The position numbers and the translations under genes are program-made. 64,000 nucleotides of DNA from Bacteroidota bacterium (GTDB lineage: Bacteria > Bacteroidota > Bacteroidia > 2-12-FULL-35-15): contig JAQZBR010000009.1 of assembly GCA_029237775.1 (NCBI GenBank), forward strand, positions 71,708-135,707, read 5' to 3'. A model generated the notes under the pieces. It did not search any database, had not been told where the DNA came from, and was given only the letters and a program-made list of their open reading frames with translations. Below, one piece after another: positions 8,401 to 16,786 of this stretch (positions are counted from its first letter, which is position 1; the number at the start of each line of letters is the position of its first letter).

Positions 8401-10115
8401 CAAATTTCTCCACCGGAGGAAGTATCTATGAATGGGATTTCGGTGATGGAAATATTTCAACTAATCAAAATGCAACTCACGTTTATACTGCACCTGGTGT
8501 TTATACATGTCATTTGTATGTAAACAACGGTTGTAGTTTCGATACCAGCTCTGTTGTTATAACGGTGAACCCCGGCCCCTCACTTTCATACACCACTGAT
8601 GTAAATCTTACCTGCGTGAATCAACTTATACAGTTCACGAACACATCCACAGGCTCAGCGGTATTTAACTGGAGCTTCGGAGACGGCACCACATCATCGC
8701 TTACAAATCCTTCTCACTCATTTGCATCACAGGGCGTGTACACGGTTACACTTTCAGGAGCTTCCACCACATTCGGATGCATCGATAGCATTAGCCAGAC
8801 TGTAACTATAAGCGCACTTCCAATACCTGCGATAAGCGCCTCAACGACCTTTGGCTGCGGGCCATTAACAGTGAGCTTTAACAACACATCATCAAATGCA
8901 AACTTTTATTCATGGAACTTTGACGAAGGCAATACTTCAGCCACCACTTCACCCACCCATGTATTCAATTCGCCTGGGACATATAACGTAGTACTTGTCG
9001 CGGAAAATTTACAAGGATGTATAGATTCGGTTTCAGTCGCTATAAACGTTTACCCTGATCCTATCGCAGACTTTGCTTTATCTTCCCCCTTTTCGTGTAC
9101 GCTCCCTGCAATTGCTAATGTTAGCAACAACTCCAGCGGAGCTTCCAGCTATGTCTGGAATCTGGGAGATGGGCAAACTTCTAACCTGAACGCTCCAACT
9201 ATAACCTATAATGCTTATAACACTTATCAGATCCTGCTTACAGCAATCAATACCTATGGTTGCATTGATACGGCTTCGGCCTTATTTCATGCAATGCCTA
9301 CGCCCGTAATTGCAGTAAGTCCTGATGTTTCAAGTGGATGTGAACCTTTGACTGTAACGTTTACAAACAACACAACCGATGCTACAACTTATCTGTGGCA
9401 GTCCGGTACCGGAGACACGTCTTCTGTAGCGAATCCCGCATTCACATATCTTAATTCGGGATCTTACAATGTCACGCTAACTGCTAGCAATGCTTTTTGC
9501 AGCAACACTTATAACAACTCACCGATAATAGTTAAACCTACACCAACTGCAAACTTCGATTACGAGCAGGTTTACATCGGTGACATTCCTAATGGCACTA
9601 TATCATTTAACAATCTTTCAGTTGATGCAAATTCATATTTATGGGATTTCGGTGATGAGCTAAACTCAGAAGAAACAGAACCCACACATCAGTTTCCGGG
9701 GATAGGTGCATACAGCACCCTGCTTACTGCAAGCAACAGCTATCAATGCAGTGACACTGCTATGATCACTGTAATCCCGGATTATTTCTCAGGACTGTTT
9801 GTTCCGAATGCGCTTATGCCAAACAATCCTGCGGGTGGAGAGTCAATGCTCTTTCTGCCGAAAGGAAAATCACTCAGAACTTACCGACTGCAGATCTTCG
9901 ATACCTGGGGCATTCAACTTTTCGAATCCACATTGCTTGATGCGAATGGAAGTCCTGCGGAAGGATGGAACGGTACTTCGAAAGGTGTTGAATGTCCGCA
10001 AGACGTATACGTGTGGAAGATCGATGCAGTCTTCAGTGACGGAACAATATGGCCCGGTAAGAAATATCCTAATGGCAAAACAGATAAAACAGGAACGGTA
10101 ACGTTGATAAGATAA
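2403..10115 (+). CDS. Giant PKD/Ig-like repeat adhesin with type B T9SS C-terminal domain (CHU_C/gliding-motility type)
   Basis: ORF 2379-10115 (TTG start); ATG at 2403 gives a better signal peptide. Many PKD motifs ('YSWDFGDG'), C-terminus 'FVPNALMPNN...YRLQIFDTWGIQLFEST...GWNGTSKGVECPQDVYVWKIDAVFSDG'. Confidence 0.93.
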   Translation: MLRSYFAFSVFLLFSSSIFGQACNVNVTASTINICPGGSVTLTASGATTYNWSPGNVTANSITVSPLTTTTYTVDGNCSGSNSDDTITIFVRPLPIAAFATPASICAGLPVAFTSSSSGTGLTYSWNFGDPASGSSNISTSANPSHTFSSAVGGTSQSFNVTLTVTSNFGCTHSVTNSVTVKQRPDASIADYLSASQFTNCGSGNFDLEVTNTSTTDATNSNYTISWGDGSPNFVSSSWMQNDVATHTYASLGFFNLVLTVTGTNGCSSTSTYSVYNGSNPAVGLGNPGGTVNLCLPTSLTFPITGTAGNAPGTTYLITTNTGAPSVTYTHPPPASYTHTFTTSSCGATGGNTANSFYVRIKAINPCGFSESTIEPITTSVKPSADISISPDTVGCVNTPFVFTNTSIVGISVDNTGTCDSRNKPQWLISPATGWGPPSGVNNMLGSSSNQLGRNPPALANPASYGSNTLSVPFSIAGTYTISMIVGNTCGNDTLSRTVCVEVPPVPSFTINPAAGCSPLVVNVTNNSTLTNQCRPAQRLWTVTKTSSTCPADSTNDFVFISGTNNTSLNPVFRFNNQGNYTITLALTNKCGTFTYTQTVTVKRKPVVTINPVAGNCGTVTVSPVANATNCADNPLTYLWTFGGGTPATSTLANPGSVSFSSVGTHTISLAVTNECGTTSAVTSFNITQPPIANAGSDAAICTGQSTTLSGSATLGTPGYTYSWSSAAGFVSSLQNPMVTPSSTTTYTLTVTDATGCSSTDVVVITVNPLPVITVNSPTICAGQTIALNASGATTYLWSTGASGSGISVNPGTTTSYTVTGTLASTGCSQSAVASVTVNPLPIVNAGSNLTLCNQPIAHTLSGYSPAGGTWSGSGVTAGGVFTPSAVGAFPLTYSYTDASTGCSNTSGITVTVLAPAIANAGTGNTYCMNPGVITLTGFSPAGGTWSGTGVSGNTFNPSTAGAGSFILTYTVGAGTCMNSDTIHVTVTPLPNVTVNSATICAGDSITLTATGATSFLWNTGASSATITISPSATTSYTVTGSSAANGCSQSAASTITVNPLPVVTAGADLTLCNQPIPYTLTGYSPPGGTWSGPGVTAAGVFTPSTAGAFTLTYGFTNASTGCFNSDSLIVTVVAPAIANAGTGNTYCLNAGTITLSGYSPATGTWSGTGVSGNTFNPAVAGVGSFVLTYSVGAGTCLTTDTIHVTVKALPNVSVNSATICAGQVGILSANGADSYVWNTGSNINPNFVSPATTTSYTVTGTSTLTNCSATATATVNVNTLPVVSAGSDVVLCNQPIPYTLTGYSPAGGTWSGTGVTAGGVFTPSATGSFTLTYTFTNASTGCSDSDSMVAIIVAPSIANAGTGNAYCLNTGIVTLSGYSPAGGAWSGPGISGNTFNPSTAGVGNFVLSYSYGGGTCLTTDTIHVTVNPLPTVTVNSVTVCAGQSATLTANGATTYLWSNGSATNPLIVSPAATTTYTVTGTLSSTGCTSTATSTVTVDPLPVVSAGNNITLCDQPISHTLSGYSPAGGTWSGPGVTAGGIFNPSGTGAFTLAYTFINQASGCSNSDTMSVFVITPVIANAGSDEAVCLNSGLLTLSGFTPAAGIWSGTGVTAAGVFDPLVAGVGTHVLTITYGAGTCFTQDSKIVTVKPLPVVNPGPAMVVCTSTPAFNLTGFSPAGGTWSGTGITNSTAGTFDPGNAGAGNFTLTYSYTDPITNCTDSSNRTITVGALPVVAFNHVPIGCVNTPIAFANTSTGAANYSWDFGDGSFSTVAAPSHVYTSAGIYQVKLIATSGLGCSDSLSDSIQIITAPVSDFSLSPIVGCAPLNVSFTNNSTGLYMTSSWNLGNGTTSSLVNAPAQIYNQGIYDTTYYITLSNTNLCGTHIHTDSVLVKPIPVVGFGTNVISGCSPLLITFNITSTGNASSYSWDFGDGSASSSLVNPSSHVFYTGTADTTYYITLTGSNICGSDTITKPILVHPNTVTSFFTTAPISGCGPLSVTFTNFSTGGSIYEWDFGDGNISTNQNATHVYTAPGVYTCHLYVNNGCSFDTSSVVITVNPGPSLSYTTDVNLTCVNQLIQFTNTSTGSAVFNWSFGDGTTSSLTNPSHSFASQGVYTVTLSGASTTFGCIDSISQTVTISALPIPAISASTTFGCGPLTVSFNNTSSNANFYSWNFDEGNTSATTSPTHVFNSPGTYNVVLVAENLQGCIDSVSVAINVYPDPIADFALSSPFSCTLPAIANVSNNSSGASSYVWNLGDGQTSNLNAPTITYNAYNTYQILLTAINTYGCIDTASALFHAMPTPVIAVSPDVSSGCEPLTVTFTNNTTDATTYLWQSGTGDTSSVANPAFTYLNSGSYNVTLTASNAFCSNTYNNSPIIVKPTPTANFDYEQVYIGDIPNGTISFNNLSVDANSYLWDFGDELNSEETEPTHQFPGIGAYSTLLTASNSYQCSDTAMITVIPDYFSGLFVPNALMPNNPAGGESMLFLPKGKSLRTYRLQIFDTWGIQLFESTLLDANGSPAEGWNGTSKGVECPQDVYVWKIDAVFSDGTIWPGKKYPNGKTDKTGTVTLIR
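4711..7350 (+). repeat. Four tandem 660-bp (220-aa) super-repeats inside the adhesin, each with three Ig-like modules
   Basis: Module starts are exactly 660 bp apart: 'LP(V/N)(I/V)(T/S)VNS' at 4711/5371/6031/6691; 'LP(I/V)V.AG' at 4923/5583/6243/6903; 'IANAG' at 5151/5811/6471/7131. Confidence 0.9.
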
Positions 10116-11295: not shown

Positions 11296-12606
11296 CTATT
11301 CAACTACGACTTTACTGATATTAATATATTTTCCATTACTCGCTTTTACGAAATAGATACCCGGGCGAGCACAGTTCAAATGAATCTCTCCTGAACCGCT
11401 TTGCGGAATCATACTAGAATAAATAATCTCACCGTATATATTAAAAACTTCTAACAAGATCCTTTCCAATCCTATGTTTGTCTGTATTTTAAAATTTCCA
11501 TTATTGGGATTTGGAAAAACATTCAGTATGTTTTCTTTTTTTTCAGTTTCCTGTATTCCGATCGCATTGCTTTCGATTTTCAAGAATTTCATGTTTGGCC
11601 CTCCGGAAGGCAGACTACCATTTGCATATCCAACACTATCATTTATCATCCGAAAGCCAAAAATATAGTAGTTTGGTAGGACAGAAGTAACCCAATGAGA
11701 ACCAGAATCAGCAGACATACTAAAATAAGAATTGCCAGCCAGGCTCACCATATTATACAACTTATCTTCAGAAAGAAACTGAATATAACCCAACGAATCA
11801 TATTTAATATTCTTAACCCATGTATTTCCCCCATCAGATGTTTTAAACACATCACCTGAATCTGCATAAACATAGGCCACAGTATTATTAATTACCTGCA
11901 AAGATTTAGAATCGAACTTTCTTCCATTCGGAATCGGGCTGTTTAACCAGGTTAATCCGCCATCATTTGTTTTAATTATAGAGTCTGCGGTATGGTCATT
12001 TTGAGAACGTCCAAATAAGACATATCCATTCAGGCTATCAGCAAAATAAAGCTCTTGATAGTTAATTAAAGCAGATGATAAGGTACTCACGAAATACAAT
12101 GAATCACTCCAGAATCTATAAAAATTATTATTAAAAAAGCCGTAGCCTAACTTCCCATTAATAAAGGTCAGATTTGGAGGACGGTTATTTGTGGACAAAT
12201 CAGACCAAGTAGTCCCTCCATCAAATGTTCTTACGAAGAAAGGATATCCGCCACACTCATATAATATATAAATAGAATCTCCTGAAACAAAATCTACATC
12301 CTTCAATTCTTTATTATGATTGTAACACGCGCTGTAATTGAAAGAGGAGAGTGGCGGAATGGAAAGATACGAATTACTCGCGAATGAATTATTGGTTCTT
12401 GTTATTGAAAAATAAGCATGCTGCGTAGGAGAGCAAGAGTTGGTTTGATACCACCAAGCAACAGAGTTTTCATCGATAAAATCCGTAGCATAACCTACGT
12501 AATTATTACATGATTGATTAACCCCTATAGAAGCAACCTCCACCCATTGGGAATAACACCTGGGTGTAAAAAAAAGCAATACAAGAAAAACACATTTAAA
12601 CTTCAT
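11296..12606 (-). CDS. Secreted BNR/YCF48-like repeat protein with type A T9SS sorting domain
   Basis: Signal peptide; repeated 'TxDGGxTW' motifs; C-terminus 'NVFPNPNNGNFKIQTN...VFNIYGEIIYS...PGIYFVKASNGK'. Confidence 0.85.
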   Translation of the reverse strand: MKFKCVFLVLLFFTPRCYSQWVEVASIGVNQSCNNYVGYATDFIDENSVAWWYQTNSCSPTQHAYFSITRTNNSFASNSYLSIPPLSSFNYSACYNHNKELKDVDFVSGDSIYILYECGGYPFFVRTFDGGTTWSDLSTNNRPPNLTFINGKLGYGFFNNNFYRFWSDSLYFVSTLSSALINYQELYFADSLNGYVLFGRSQNDHTADSIIKTNDGGLTWLNSPIPNGRKFDSKSLQVINNTVAYVYADSGDVFKTSDGGNTWVKNIKYDSLGYIQFLSEDKLYNMVSLAGNSYFSMSADSGSHWVTSVLPNYYIFGFRMINDSVGYANGSLPSGGPNMKFLKIESNAIGIQETEKKENILNVFPNPNNGNFKIQTNIGLERILLEVFNIYGEIIYSSMIPQSGSGEIHLNCARPGIYFVKASNGKYINISKVVVE

Positions 12607-12624
12607 CTCACAGGATTAACTATT

Positions 12625-14466
12625 CTACTCTACCGTGACACTCTTCGCCAGATTCCTAGGCTGATCCACATTACAATTACGCATTACCGCAATATGATAA
12701 GAAAGTAACTGTAAAGGAATTGCTGCAATAAGAGGGACGAGAATTTCATCTGTTTCAGGGATCTCGATGGAATAATCTGCCATCTCCTTAACCTGTTTGT
12801 CGCCCTCGGTGATGATCGCGATGATCTTACCTTTACGGGCTTTTACTTCCTGGATATTACTTACCACCTTTTCATAAGATGTCCCTTTTGTTGCAATAAC
12901 AAACACCGGCATCTCCTCGTCAATTAACGCGATCGGACCGTGTTTCATTTCTGCGGCAGGATAACCTTCAGCATGGATATAAGAGATCTCTTTTAATTTC
13001 AAAGCTCCTTCCAGTGCAACAGGGAATGTATATCCGCGGCCCAGGTATAATGCATTAGTTGCGTTCTTGTAAATATCCGCGATGAATTTTATTTGTTCGT
13101 TCTTCTCAAGCACTTTCTGAACCTTGTCAGGCACAGCTTCCAGCTCACTCAACAGCTGATGGAATCGTGAGGATGAAATTGTTCCTTTTAAGAATGCGAT
13201 ACGTAATGCCATTAATGTAAGCACTGTAACCTGTGCAGTGAATGCTTTTGTTGATGCAACACCGATCTCAGGACCCGCATGTGTATATGATCCCGCATGT
13301 GTAGCACGAGCGATAGACGACCCAACCACATTACAGATTCCAATGATCGTTGCACCTTTTGATTTCGCAAGTTCGATTGCAGCTAACGTATCTGCAGTTT
13401 CTCCTGATTGGGAAATGGCAATGATCACATCATCTTCATAAACGATCGGATTACGGTAACGAAATTCCGAAGCGTACTCCACCTCTACCGGAATTCTCGC
13501 AAGGTCTTCAAATAAATATTCTCCTACCAGTCCGGCATGCCATGAAGTCCCGCATGCTACGAATATGATACGTTTTGCATTCACGAATTTCTGCTCGTAT
13601 TCTGTAATTCCACCAAGATTAACAACACGCTTTTCAGAGCTTAATCTTCCGCGCATACTATCCTTAATAGAACGTGGCTGCTCATAGATCTCCTTCAGCA
13701 TGAAGTGATCGTAACCGCCTTTTTCAAGCGCTTCAAGCTTCAGCTCAAGCTCCTGAACATAGGGAGTTTTCGCTTTATTCTTGATCGTTTTGATCTTTAA
13801 CTCTTTTCCACGCTCAATGAATGCGATCTCTTCATCTTCAAGATAAACCACATTCTTAGTGTATTCAACGATCGGTGTTGCATCCGATGCAATGTAAAAT
13901 TCATCTTCACCGATCCCGATCACCATCGGACTGCCTTTTTTCGCAGCGAATAATTCATTCGGATTTTCCTTCGAAAGAATAACGATCGCGTAAGCACCAA
14001 CCACCTGGTTCAATGCCTGTCTCACAGCTTCACCCAAACGAACATTTTCTTTTTCCTTGATGTCTTCGATCAGGTGGATCAACACTTCTGTATCTGTGTC
14101 GCTTAAAAAAACGTGACCACGTTTTTTTAATTCTTCTTTGATCGGACCGTAATTTTCAATGATCCCGTTATGGATCATCACCATGTTTTTGGATGCCGAA
14201 TAATGAGGGTGTGCATTCACATCATTAGGAACACCATGCGTGGCCCAGCGAGTATGCCCAATCCCAATAGTACCGGAAGTGTTCTGGCTTCCGATAAAAG
14301 CATGCAGATCAGCAACCTTTCCTTTGCACTTGTAAACATTTAATTCACCTTTATCGATCATTGCAACACCGGCACTGTCGTACCCTCTGTACTCCAGTCG
14401 CTGCAGCCCTTTTATTAACACAGGGTATGCCTGTTTATTTCCTATATATCCTACAATTCCGCACAT
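12625..14466 (-). CDS. glmS: Glutamine--fructose-6-phosphate transaminase (isomerizing)
   Basis: 'MCGIVGYIGNKQAYPVLIKGLQRLEYRGYDSAGVA' and C-terminal 'LAKSVTVE'; two SIS domains. Confidence 0.98.
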   Translation of the reverse strand: MCGIVGYIGNKQAYPVLIKGLQRLEYRGYDSAGVAMIDKGELNVYKCKGKVADLHAFIGSQNTSGTIGIGHTRWATHGVPNDVNAHPHYSASKNMVMIHNGIIENYGPIKEELKKRGHVFLSDTDTEVLIHLIEDIKEKENVRLGEAVRQALNQVVGAYAIVILSKENPNELFAAKKGSPMVIGIGEDEFYIASDATPIVEYTKNVVYLEDEEIAFIERGKELKIKTIKNKAKTPYVQELELKLEALEKGGYDHFMLKEIYEQPRSIKDSMRGRLSSEKRVVNLGGITEYEQKFVNAKRIIFVACGTSWHAGLVGEYLFEDLARIPVEVEYASEFRYRNPIVYEDDVIIAISQSGETADTLAAIELAKSKGATIIGICNVVGSSIARATHAGSYTHAGPEIGVASTKAFTAQVTVLTLMALRIAFLKGTISSSRFHQLLSELEAVPDKVQKVLEKNEQIKFIADIYKNATNALYLGRGYTFPVALEGALKLKEISYIHAEGYPAAEMKHGPIALIDEEMPVFVIATKGTSYEKVVSNIQEVKARKGKIIAIITEGDKQVKEMADYSIEIPETDEILVPLIAAIPLQLLSYHIAVMRNCNVDQPRNLAKSVTVE

Positions 14467-14468
14467 GT

Positions 14469-15845
14469 TTAATGAAGTTTTGTGTATGTTATATTTAATT
14501 TCATTTTTTGACTTCCTTTGCTGCTGCCGCTTCCGACTACAACCCTGTTCGCATTCACAGCCCCCCCTGATGCCAGAAGATACAACCCGGTATTTGCCCG
14601 GGAGCCATTCAATACCTGCTGAATATATCTCGCGATATTAAAATGATACTCATTTGTTGCTTTGTTGTAAGTACCATCAAACACCTCATTCGATTCCAGG
14701 GCATCCGGCATAATATAATTAGTATTGTTTGCACTGATACCAAACAAAACCAGTTTGGAAGGAGCGCTGAAAGTATCCTTCTGAAACAACGGGTTCATCT
14801 CTACCTTGATAACAAGCTCTGCCTTATTCACAGCGATCTTTCCGGAATCATTCCAACGCATAATGTGTGGAAACTCGAGTTTCGCTTTCGTTCCGGCAAG
14901 TGCCTGAATGTACAAAGCAGTATCAGCAGAAGTTGAAGTGGTTAACTGAGAATATAAATACGGATGAGCAGTGGTATAACCATGATGATTAAAAGAAGAA
15001 AAACGGCCTACACTGTTAAATCCAAGATCATAGCGCAAGGAATCACCCGCATTGTTATGATAATAAATTGAAACTTTCGACTGGAGATCCCCCATTAAGA
15101 AGTGAAGAATATTTCCATCACCCGGAGTAGTGCTAACCACATCGCTTGTAATATACAGCCCCGGACAAAAATCCTGAAATGAAGGAGTGGTCGCAAGATT
15201 ATTAGTAGTAGCGGCCTGATTTAAGATAACTGTCCCAAACCCGCTCTCAATCGGAATGCGCAGATGAGGCTTAAGTGAATCACCCATTACAAACACCTTT
15301 TTAGTGGGTTGAGGAGTGTATACGAAACCATTTGCAAGATCATTCAGATTATAAGCAATTGAATTATTGGAGAAATAGTCAATGTCAGTGTTCATCTTAT
15401 CACTCAACTGATGAACAGATATACGCTGGCTCTTTCTATCCTTTTTTCCGTAAAAATCAGAAGCATAGGTTAAACATAAAACCACTGAATCGCAAACAGG
15501 GTTAACTCCGAAATCCGGATCGTTTCCGGGTAAGCGCATCTGTGTATACAAAGAAGCACTTGTTTTTCCAAAGATGGGATCTATGTATGTTCCTATCAGA
15601 GCATCTCCGGTTGTAATGATGGATGCATCGGTGTGAAGAGAATCTTCTCTGACTGTTGAACCAAGTATGGTGGTGGTGTCACTCCATTTAACATTCAAAA
15701 GATCACTGCCGGGCTGAACGTCTAGTCCGACAACACTTTCTTCGTTACAGGAAACAGCGAGAGTTGAAATCAGGCCTATAAAAAAAAATTTTGTCCCGAA
15801 AGAACGGGACAAAATTTCTGGTAATCTTTTAGTAATTTTATTCAT
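14469..15845 (-). CDS. DUF4270 family lipoprotein
   Basis: Lipobox 'LAVSCNEE'; 'VGLDVQPGSDLLNVKWSDTTTI...REDSLHTD' characteristic start; position between glmS and the glycogen synthase-like gene. Confidence 0.85.
   Translation of the reverse strand: MNKITKRLPEILSRSFGTKFFFIGLISTLAVSCNEESVVGLDVQPGSDLLNVKWSDTTTILGSTVREDSLHTDASIITTGDALIGTYIDPIFGKTSASLYTQMRLPGNDPDFGVNPVCDSVVLCLTYASDFYGKKDRKSQRISVHQLSDKMNTDIDYFSNNSIAYNLNDLANGFVYTPQPTKKVFVMGDSLKPHLRIPIESGFGTVILNQAATTNNLATTPSFQDFCPGLYITSDVVSTTPGDGNILHFLMGDLQSKVSIYYHNNAGDSLRYDLGFNSVGRFSSFNHHGYTTAHPYLYSQLTTSTSADTALYIQALAGTKAKLEFPHIMRWNDSGKIAVNKAELVIKVEMNPLFQKDTFSAPSKLVLFGISANNTNYIMPDALESNEVFDGTYNKATNEYHFNIARYIQQVLNGSRANTGLYLLASGGAVNANRVVVGSGSSKGSQKMKLNITYTKLH
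15780..15817 (-). terminator. Intrinsic-terminator-like hairpin inside the 5' coding region of the DUF4270 gene
   Basis: Minus strand AAATTTTGTCCCG-TTCTTT-CGGGACAAAATTT followed by TTTTTTAT; perfect 13-bp stem, 6-nt loop. Confidence 0.75.
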
Positions 15846-15887
15846 AAAATGTATTCAATAAGATGGCGTGGCTCTTTAAGAAAATGG

Positions 15888-16721
15888 TTAGTCTGCCATT
15901 TCAGCCACTTCCTCCAAAACCGCGTCATAGAATTCTGAGTAAGCGTCAATATATTCATCCGCACCTTTATATTCAAGAACCGGTTTTCCGGATTTCTTCA
16001 AATATTTTGTAATGTCAGCATTGATCTTCGGACTTCCGATGATGATCGCATCTGCAAGATCAATAGCTGCTTTGCTAACGTTGACAAATGTAGGATTTTT
16101 AAACCATTCCACATCTGTTTTTTCGATCCCTTCATACATTACCTTCTTAGCGAAATCCTTGTGTAAAGCACCCGGGAATTCATCGTCAGCATAGATCGAA
16201 TAAACGATCTTAGTGTCAGCGAATAATGGATTGTCTTTAAATGATTTCTTAAGATAAAGAGCCATAAGACTTGTCATCCATCCGTGGCAATGAACCACAT
16301 CAGGCGCCCAGCCTAATTTTTTTACCGTTTCAATAACTCCGCGGCAGAAAAATATAGCGCGCTCATCGTTATCAGCGAAATGCTCACCTTTTTTATCTAC
16401 TAAAGTGTGCTTACGCTCAAAATATTCCTGATTGTCAATAAAATAAACCTGCATGCGGGCTGCCTGGATAGAAGCAACCTTGATGATCAATGGATGATCT
16501 GCATCATCAATAATAAGATTCATACCTGAAAGACGGATAACTTCGTGTAACTGGTTGCGTCTTTCGTTAATACAACCGAACTTCGGCATAAATAATCTGA
16601 TCTCTTTTCCTCGTTCCTGAATGCCCTGAGGGAGCTTTCGGCCAATAATGCTCATTGGCGTTTCATCTAAATAGGGGGTAACTTCCTGCGATACAAATAG
16701 TACTCTTGCTTTCTTCTTCAT
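15888..16721 (-). CDS. Glycogen/starch synthase-like protein, N-terminal GT5 domain only
   Basis: 'RVLFVSQEVTPYLDETPMSIIGRKLPQGIQERGKEIRLFMPKFG' and 'DVVHCHGWMTSLMALYLK'; 277 aa, lacks the C-terminal GT-B half. Confidence 0.85.
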   Translation of the reverse strand: MKKKARVLFVSQEVTPYLDETPMSIIGRKLPQGIQERGKEIRLFMPKFGCINERRNQLHEVIRLSGMNLIIDDADHPLIIKVASIQAARMQVYFIDNQEYFERKHTLVDKKGEHFADNDERAIFFCRGVIETVKKLGWAPDVVHCHGWMTSLMALYLKKSFKDNPLFADTKIVYSIYADDEFPGALHKDFAKKVMYEGIEKTDVEWFKNPTFVNVSKAAIDLADAIIIGSPKINADITKYLKKSGKPVLEYKGADEYIDAYSEFYDAVLEEVAEMAD

Positions 16722-16754: not shown

Positions 16755-16786
16755 CAAAAGTAAGCAAAAATTTTCGAATTTTCAAA
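16755..16786 (-). promoter_or_regulatory. Putative Bacteroidetes promoter for the glycogen synthase-like gene
   Basis: Minus strand TTTG - N20 - TACTTTTG, matching the TTTG/TAnnTTTG consensus. Confidence 0.55.

Follow-up and report, generated by a model that had tools for sequence, protein, structure and literature searches.

Terminators and attenuators within operons are well known in Escherichia coli, where the rplL-rpoB attenuator and the rpsU-dnaG terminator T1 are both of this kind. The E. coli pyrBI attenuator places its terminator within a translated leader frame, using a dedicated leader peptide and UTP-sensitive pausing. In the archaeon M. maripaludis, operon-internal termination (ioTTS) that sets expression ratios is established (PMC10450193). 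In E. coli, ribosomes silence an intrinsic terminator that lies close behind a stop codon, but one more than 27 nt past the stop is fully active. Most of the efficiency is also retained at 30 bp past an AUG, because ribosomes there still lag behind RNA polymerase (PMC4824070).

We analysed a 64,000-nt stretch of DNA from a Bacteroidota bacterium (the window) and found in it a hairpin that probably functions as an operon-internal attenuator. DUF4270 and glmS would be expressed by read-through of a terminator at the end of glgA. Like rplL-rpoB, rpsU-dnaG T1 and the ioTTS of M. maripaludis (PMC10450193), this element lies between the genes of an operon that appears to have a single upstream promoter, and it is expected to lower expression of the downstream genes. 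Unlike those elements, it overlaps (in this genus) the next gene's coding sequence and covaries under a double coding constraint; the partial termination is a prediction. It resembles pyrBI in that an intrinsic terminator lies in frame, where a close ribosome could block its folding. The frame is open, with an in-frame ATG upstream, in 33 of 33 same-genus genomes, and is probably translated. In contrast to pyrBI, the frame belongs to an actual lipoprotein gene, and we identified neither a pause cluster nor an effector. Li et al. 2015 (PMC4824070) placed synthetic terminators within ORFs at similar distances, 30 bp from an AUG and over 27 nt from a stop codon upstream. Those were made with an engineered phage terminator in E. 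coli, whereas the element described here is natural and conserved in Bacteroidia. Like the glmS ribozyme riboswitch and other Rfam leaders, it would control glmS by RNA structure. Unlike them, it has no match to an Rfam leader (the scan of the window found one tRNA and no leader element), and it has no conserved alternative (antiterminator) fold, the region upstream of the hairpin being no more stably folded than shuffled sequences (mean z +0.5). These two results ruled out a riboswitch or antiterminator leader. Intra-operon terminators and pyrBI-like in-frame terminators are thus already known; what is new is deep conservation inside an ordinary protein gene.

The hairpin lies in an operon that begins with a glgA-like gene, divergent from panC, in a gene order that is conserved across the class (Table 1). 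The original prediction had placed it in the early codons of DUF4270, between a glycogen-synthase-like gene and DUF4270-glmS on the minus strand, and domain matches for the glgA-like gene (PF08323) and for DUF4270 (PF14092) agree with this. The glgA-like protein, of only 277 aa, matched the starch-synthase catalytic (GT5) domain but gave no match to a second glycosyltransferase domain; its place in the panC|glgA-DUF4270-glmS arrangement is conserved across Bacteroidia. A gene for a 436-aa protein with a C-terminal sorting-like tail (positions 11296-12606, minus strand) lies 18 nt past glmS on the same strand and may share the operon.

Table 1. Features of the glgA-DUF4270-glmS operon, in positions of the window
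Feature	Position	Strand	Basis or comment
Predicted promoter of the glgA-DUF4270-glmS operon, TTTG-N20-TACTTTTG	16755..16786	-	Bacteroidetes -33/-7 consensus
First operon gene, glgA-like; 277 aa with a starch synthase catalytic domain	15888..16721	-	PF08323, E 3e-50
T-run abutting the DUF4270 ATG (T at -3 and -1), unfavourable start context	15846..15849	-	Genus comparison
DUF4270 lipoprotein gene	14469..15845	-	PF14092, E 6e-47; ATG 15845-15843, lipobox Cys33 at 15749-15747
Hairpin 5' arm, AGAAATTTTGTCCCG	15805..15819	-	Read from sequence; compensatory changes in 9/15 pairs over 28 relatives
Hairpin loop, TTCTTT	15799..15804	-	Loop sequence varies among relatives
Hairpin 3' arm, CGGGACAAAATTTTT	15784..15798	-	Read from sequence; covariation
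U-tract, 9 T, first five also stem-paired	15780..15788	-	Codes for Phe-Phe-Phe of the DUF4270 signal peptide
glmS	12625..14466	-	PF01380 and GATase domains; starts 2 nt past the DUF4270 stop

The only strong promoter that we recognised in this operon is upstream of glgA. A perfect (10/10) match to the Bacteroidetes-type consensus (TTTG-N20-TAnnTTTG) is present between panC and glgA in 30 of 31 genus genomes and in none of the shuffled versions of those regions, and this promoter is very well conserved. We scanned upstream of DUF4270 and of glmS (within 230 nt for glmS) across the genus, and the best sites were at the level found in shuffled sequence; the scan was by consensus match, so that promoters off consensus would be missed. 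Within those limits, DUF4270 and glmS appear to be transcribed from the glgA promoter, through the hairpin.

The hairpin has the form of an intrinsic terminator. The minus strand from 15819 to 15784 reads AGAAATTTTGTCCCG-TTCTTT-CGGGACAAAATTTTT and is followed by TTTT; together, hairpin and U-tract extend from 15819 to 15780. The perfect 13-bp stem, 6-nt loop and U-tract of the original prediction are all present, and an outer G-U and an outer A-U pair extend the 13 unbroken Watson-Crick pairs to a stem of 15 pairs, with a run of nine T's. The stem begins 26 nt past the DUF4270 ATG, and the hairpin occupies codons 10-22 of that ORF. It is the highest-ranked terminator-like site on either strand between positions 10000 and 22000, its folding z is -4.3, and none of 200 shuffled sequences was equally stable. 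Its score falls within the range of gene-end terminators in the same genome. A stem containing G+C, a short loop and a U-rich run directly after it were found here and in 31 of the 33 same-genus genomes with a resolved junction. The exact core of the hairpin occurs once in the 4.08-Mb genome, which rules out a mobile or repeated palindrome. We judge it likely, as the best explanation of these features, that the element is a genuine intrinsic (Rho-independent) terminator that would terminate transcription in vivo.

The hairpin is not a by-product of the amino acids encoded. We redrew the first 35 codons of DUF4270 with the codon usage of the genus to give 2000 synonymous versions, and none of the 2000 made from the window's gene reached the observed hairpin score. 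Across 33 same-genus genomes, p was at or below 0.01 in 32 and below 0.001 in 29; the one genome that failed is the one without a hairpin. Nor is such a hairpin ordinary for this genome. Among 334 ORFs in 462 kb of it (the window plus further stretches, ~11% of the genome), DUF4270 had a start-proximal in-ORF hairpin score of 40.5, the next best ORF scored 27, and no second comparable case was found. Of 978 internal coding windows, one scored at least 24 and none 34. An antiporter-like gene close behind its neighbour (L186:14293-15516, minus strand) has a weak hairpin near its start (score 27), probably by chance.

DUF4270 is present in 34 of 36 same-genus genomes (the GTDB family and order comprise this genus alone), and comparison among them indicates that the RNA structure is under selection. 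The stem differs from genome to genome: variants include GTCCCG/CGGGAC, GTCACGC/GCGTGAC, GCCCCTG/CAGGGGC, GCTCCAG/CTGGAGC, GCAAACG/CGTTTGC and GCGGGC/GCCTGC. In an alignment of 28 hairpins, 94% of the cells were paired and double changes were found in 9 of the 15 pairs. There were 51 doubly changed cells compared to 12.8 in shuffles, and 0 of 500 shuffles reached 51; the cells come from related sequences, a kinship that counting changes on a tree eases but does not remove. On the DUF4270 tree, pair states changed repeatedly, up to nine times per pair, and several changes were phylogenetically independent. When the alignment was slid as a control, the paired share dropped to 36-59%. The T-run of the U-tract was invariant or nearly so in the 28 relatives, and it is also kept where the hairpin is non-coding. 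In G004, the lower stem is altered on both sides, at the cost of replacing the Lys before the Phe run with Thr, which indicates that it was the structure, not the amino acid, that was retained. The original prediction had proposed aligning relatives to look for compensatory changes in the stem, and had named loss of the stem with conservation of the amino acids as part of what would speak against it; we found compensatory changes, and a stem that is kept while the amino acids change.

Some genomes depart from the common form. The hairpin of G025 is a version with a longer loop, and those of G016 and G026 have one mismatch each. G029 (L027) is the sole same-genus genome without the hairpin and without the U-tract, although glgA is directly upstream. 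The sister genomes G001 (L028) and G023 (L025) have almost wholly different stems (GTCACGC/GCGTGAC and GCGGGC/GCCTGC), both palindromic. This difference suggests concerted replacement of the stem, perhaps by template switching.

The hairpin is probably translated as part of DUF4270, judging from the start codons. An in-frame ATG lies ahead of the stem position in 33 of 33 same-genus genomes with a resolved junction, and in most of them start codons 3' of the hairpin leave no usable lipoprotein signal peptide. For these reasons a downstream start (at a TTG in the stem or later) was rejected as the main start. An in-frame TTG is invariant at stem columns 7-9, which is explained by the need of this Leu codon to pair with codons of the opposite arm; a minor second start there is conceivable. 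The nearest suitable ATG is 23-30 nt ahead of the stem in genus genomes with a scored stem. Between the glgA stop and the stem there are 31-123 nt, about 31-38 nt in most genomes and 68 nt in the window genome. Bacteroidia mRNAs lack Shine-Dalgarno sequences, and the DUF4270 ATG is in an unfavourable context. T is at -3 in 29 and at -1 in 32 of the 33 genus genomes, compared to 25% and 35% of 217 long ORFs in the window's own genome. In F. johnsoniae, initiation is favoured by A at -3, and poorly translated genes more often have U at this position (PMC6847099).

The element is found well beyond the genus and belongs to the end of glgA. In other genera of the class Bacteroidia, a significant hairpin with a U-tract was present at this junction at 47 of 103 loci with glgA upstream, in 28 of 50 families. 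The identical test at other starts in the class gave 0 of 121 for glmS and 0 of 134 for glgA. In a GlgA tree, almost all of the clade to which the window's genus belongs carries the hairpin, for the most part within the ORF. Across the class, the stem mostly starts 30-44 nt past the glgA stop, inside DUF4270 or just ahead of its ATG: by start codons that were assigned by rule, and are uncertain for starts after the stem where no ATG was found, DUF4270 starts before the stem at 26 of the hairpin loci and after it at 21. In the latter group, the ATG is mostly 5-19 nt past the stem where measured, too close for a promoter to fit between. Seven genomes have something other than DUF4270 after glgA, and in 6 of the 7 the hairpin was present, 19-30 nt past the glgA stop (in G114, G106, G074, G073, G145 and G112, and not in G082). 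In contrast, none of 5 DUF4270 genes lacking an upstream glgA had it. Based on these comparisons of sequence, the hairpin is a predicted terminator at the end of glgA that is overlapped by the start of DUF4270. One of the explanations first offered, that the hairpin is the terminator of the upstream gene and the true DUF4270 start lies downstream, is therefore supported for the terminator and not for the start. The loss in G029, together with about half of the class loci being without a strong hairpin, indicates that the hairpin is not indispensable.

These distances match both of the E. coli conditions (PMC4824070), and we therefore read the element as an operon-internal attenuator. RNA polymerase from the glgA promoter would terminate in part at the hairpin, giving a glgA-only mRNA. 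The remaining transcripts would cross it into DUF4270 and probably glmS, and expression of DUF4270-glmS would be held below that of glgA. The same hairpin and U-tract double as codons leading into the DUF4270 signal peptide. A ribosome finishing glgA or just starting DUF4270 should rarely mask the stem, because the stem is ~31-38 nt past the glgA stop in most members of the genus and 23-30 nt past an ATG in poor context. We infer that termination is partial and that no unrecognised promoter feeds glmS.

It is possible, although we consider it unlikely, that the hairpin is a plain terminator at the end of glgA, nearly complete, and that DUF4270-glmS has its own promoter, missed by the consensus scan. 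The overlap would then reflect crowding. Such a terminator would be expected to track glgA and not DUF4270, as this one does, and to resemble ordinary gene-end terminators in score, as this one also does. With nearly complete termination GlmS would need another source. However, because the DUF4270 ATG precedes the stem, a DUF4270 promoter must precede the terminator. It would have to be inside glgA, where we found no site above chance, and its transcripts would still cross the hairpin.

A second alternative, also rather doubtful, is a translation-controlled attenuator similar to that of pyrBI, with read-through set by how quickly ribosomes initiate at the DUF4270 ATG and move into the hairpin. 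The original prediction had offered this as its other explanation. Transcription of DUF4270-glmS would then depend, in what we regard as an improbable arrangement, on translation capacity or on some factor that acts at the DUF4270 start. In all genus genomes the frame runs open across the hairpin, the poor context of the ATG is conserved, and the ATG-to-stem distance is held at 23-30 nt as compared to 31-123 nt from the glgA stop. However, a short distance within coding sequence is in any case less prone to drift than an intergenic one, and a competing antiterminator structure is not conserved. Data from E. coli suggest that RNA polymerase stays ahead of the ribosomes over the first 100 bp (PMC4824070). 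In addition, other families have the hairpin before the ATG, mostly with a gap of 5-19 nt, indicating that across the class the element can do without overlapping coding sequence. It is possible, though unlikely, that the initial codons of DUF4270 act as a self-policing switch, a terminator that is opened only by a quick ribosome start at the weak DUF4270 ATG. If true, such a switch would need neither a leader peptide nor a riboswitch, and in many Bacteroidia it would tie the supply of GlmS, the entry to amino-sugar and cell-wall synthesis, to translation capacity or a regulator of the start.

The two other explanations fare worse. It is quite improbable that the hairpin acts on translation or mRNA stability (by insulating the start site, slowing translation for signal-peptide targeting, or protecting the 3' end of glgA mRNA) rather than on termination: it does sit in signal-peptide codons, where Lys-Phe-Phe naturally gives a U-rich run, but both hairpin and U-tract are still there in genomes where they do not code or where DUF4270 is not the next gene. 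We can virtually dismiss a functionless palindrome that arose by chance and is maintained by mutation, through template-switch correction of quasi-palindromes. Template switching could help keep palindromes perfect and could make the almost whole-stem replacement between G001 and G023, but it leaves unexplained the recurrence at one junction in 28 families, never at glmS or glgA starts, and the retention of the U-tract, with no similar palindrome near other ORF starts.

The glgA-DUF4270 junction is a clean natural case in which a predicted transcription terminator and a signal peptide share the same bases, with compensatory change across the genus and recurrence across the class. Since synonymous changes can break this double-coded hairpin, it offers a direct test of transcription-translation coupling in the phylum. 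The hairpin-less G029 is a natural control for expression studies. If the operon-internal attenuator works as proposed, it would show how Bacteroidia set the levels of two products, an uncharacterised envelope lipoprotein and GlmS, an essential enzyme of amino-sugar synthesis.
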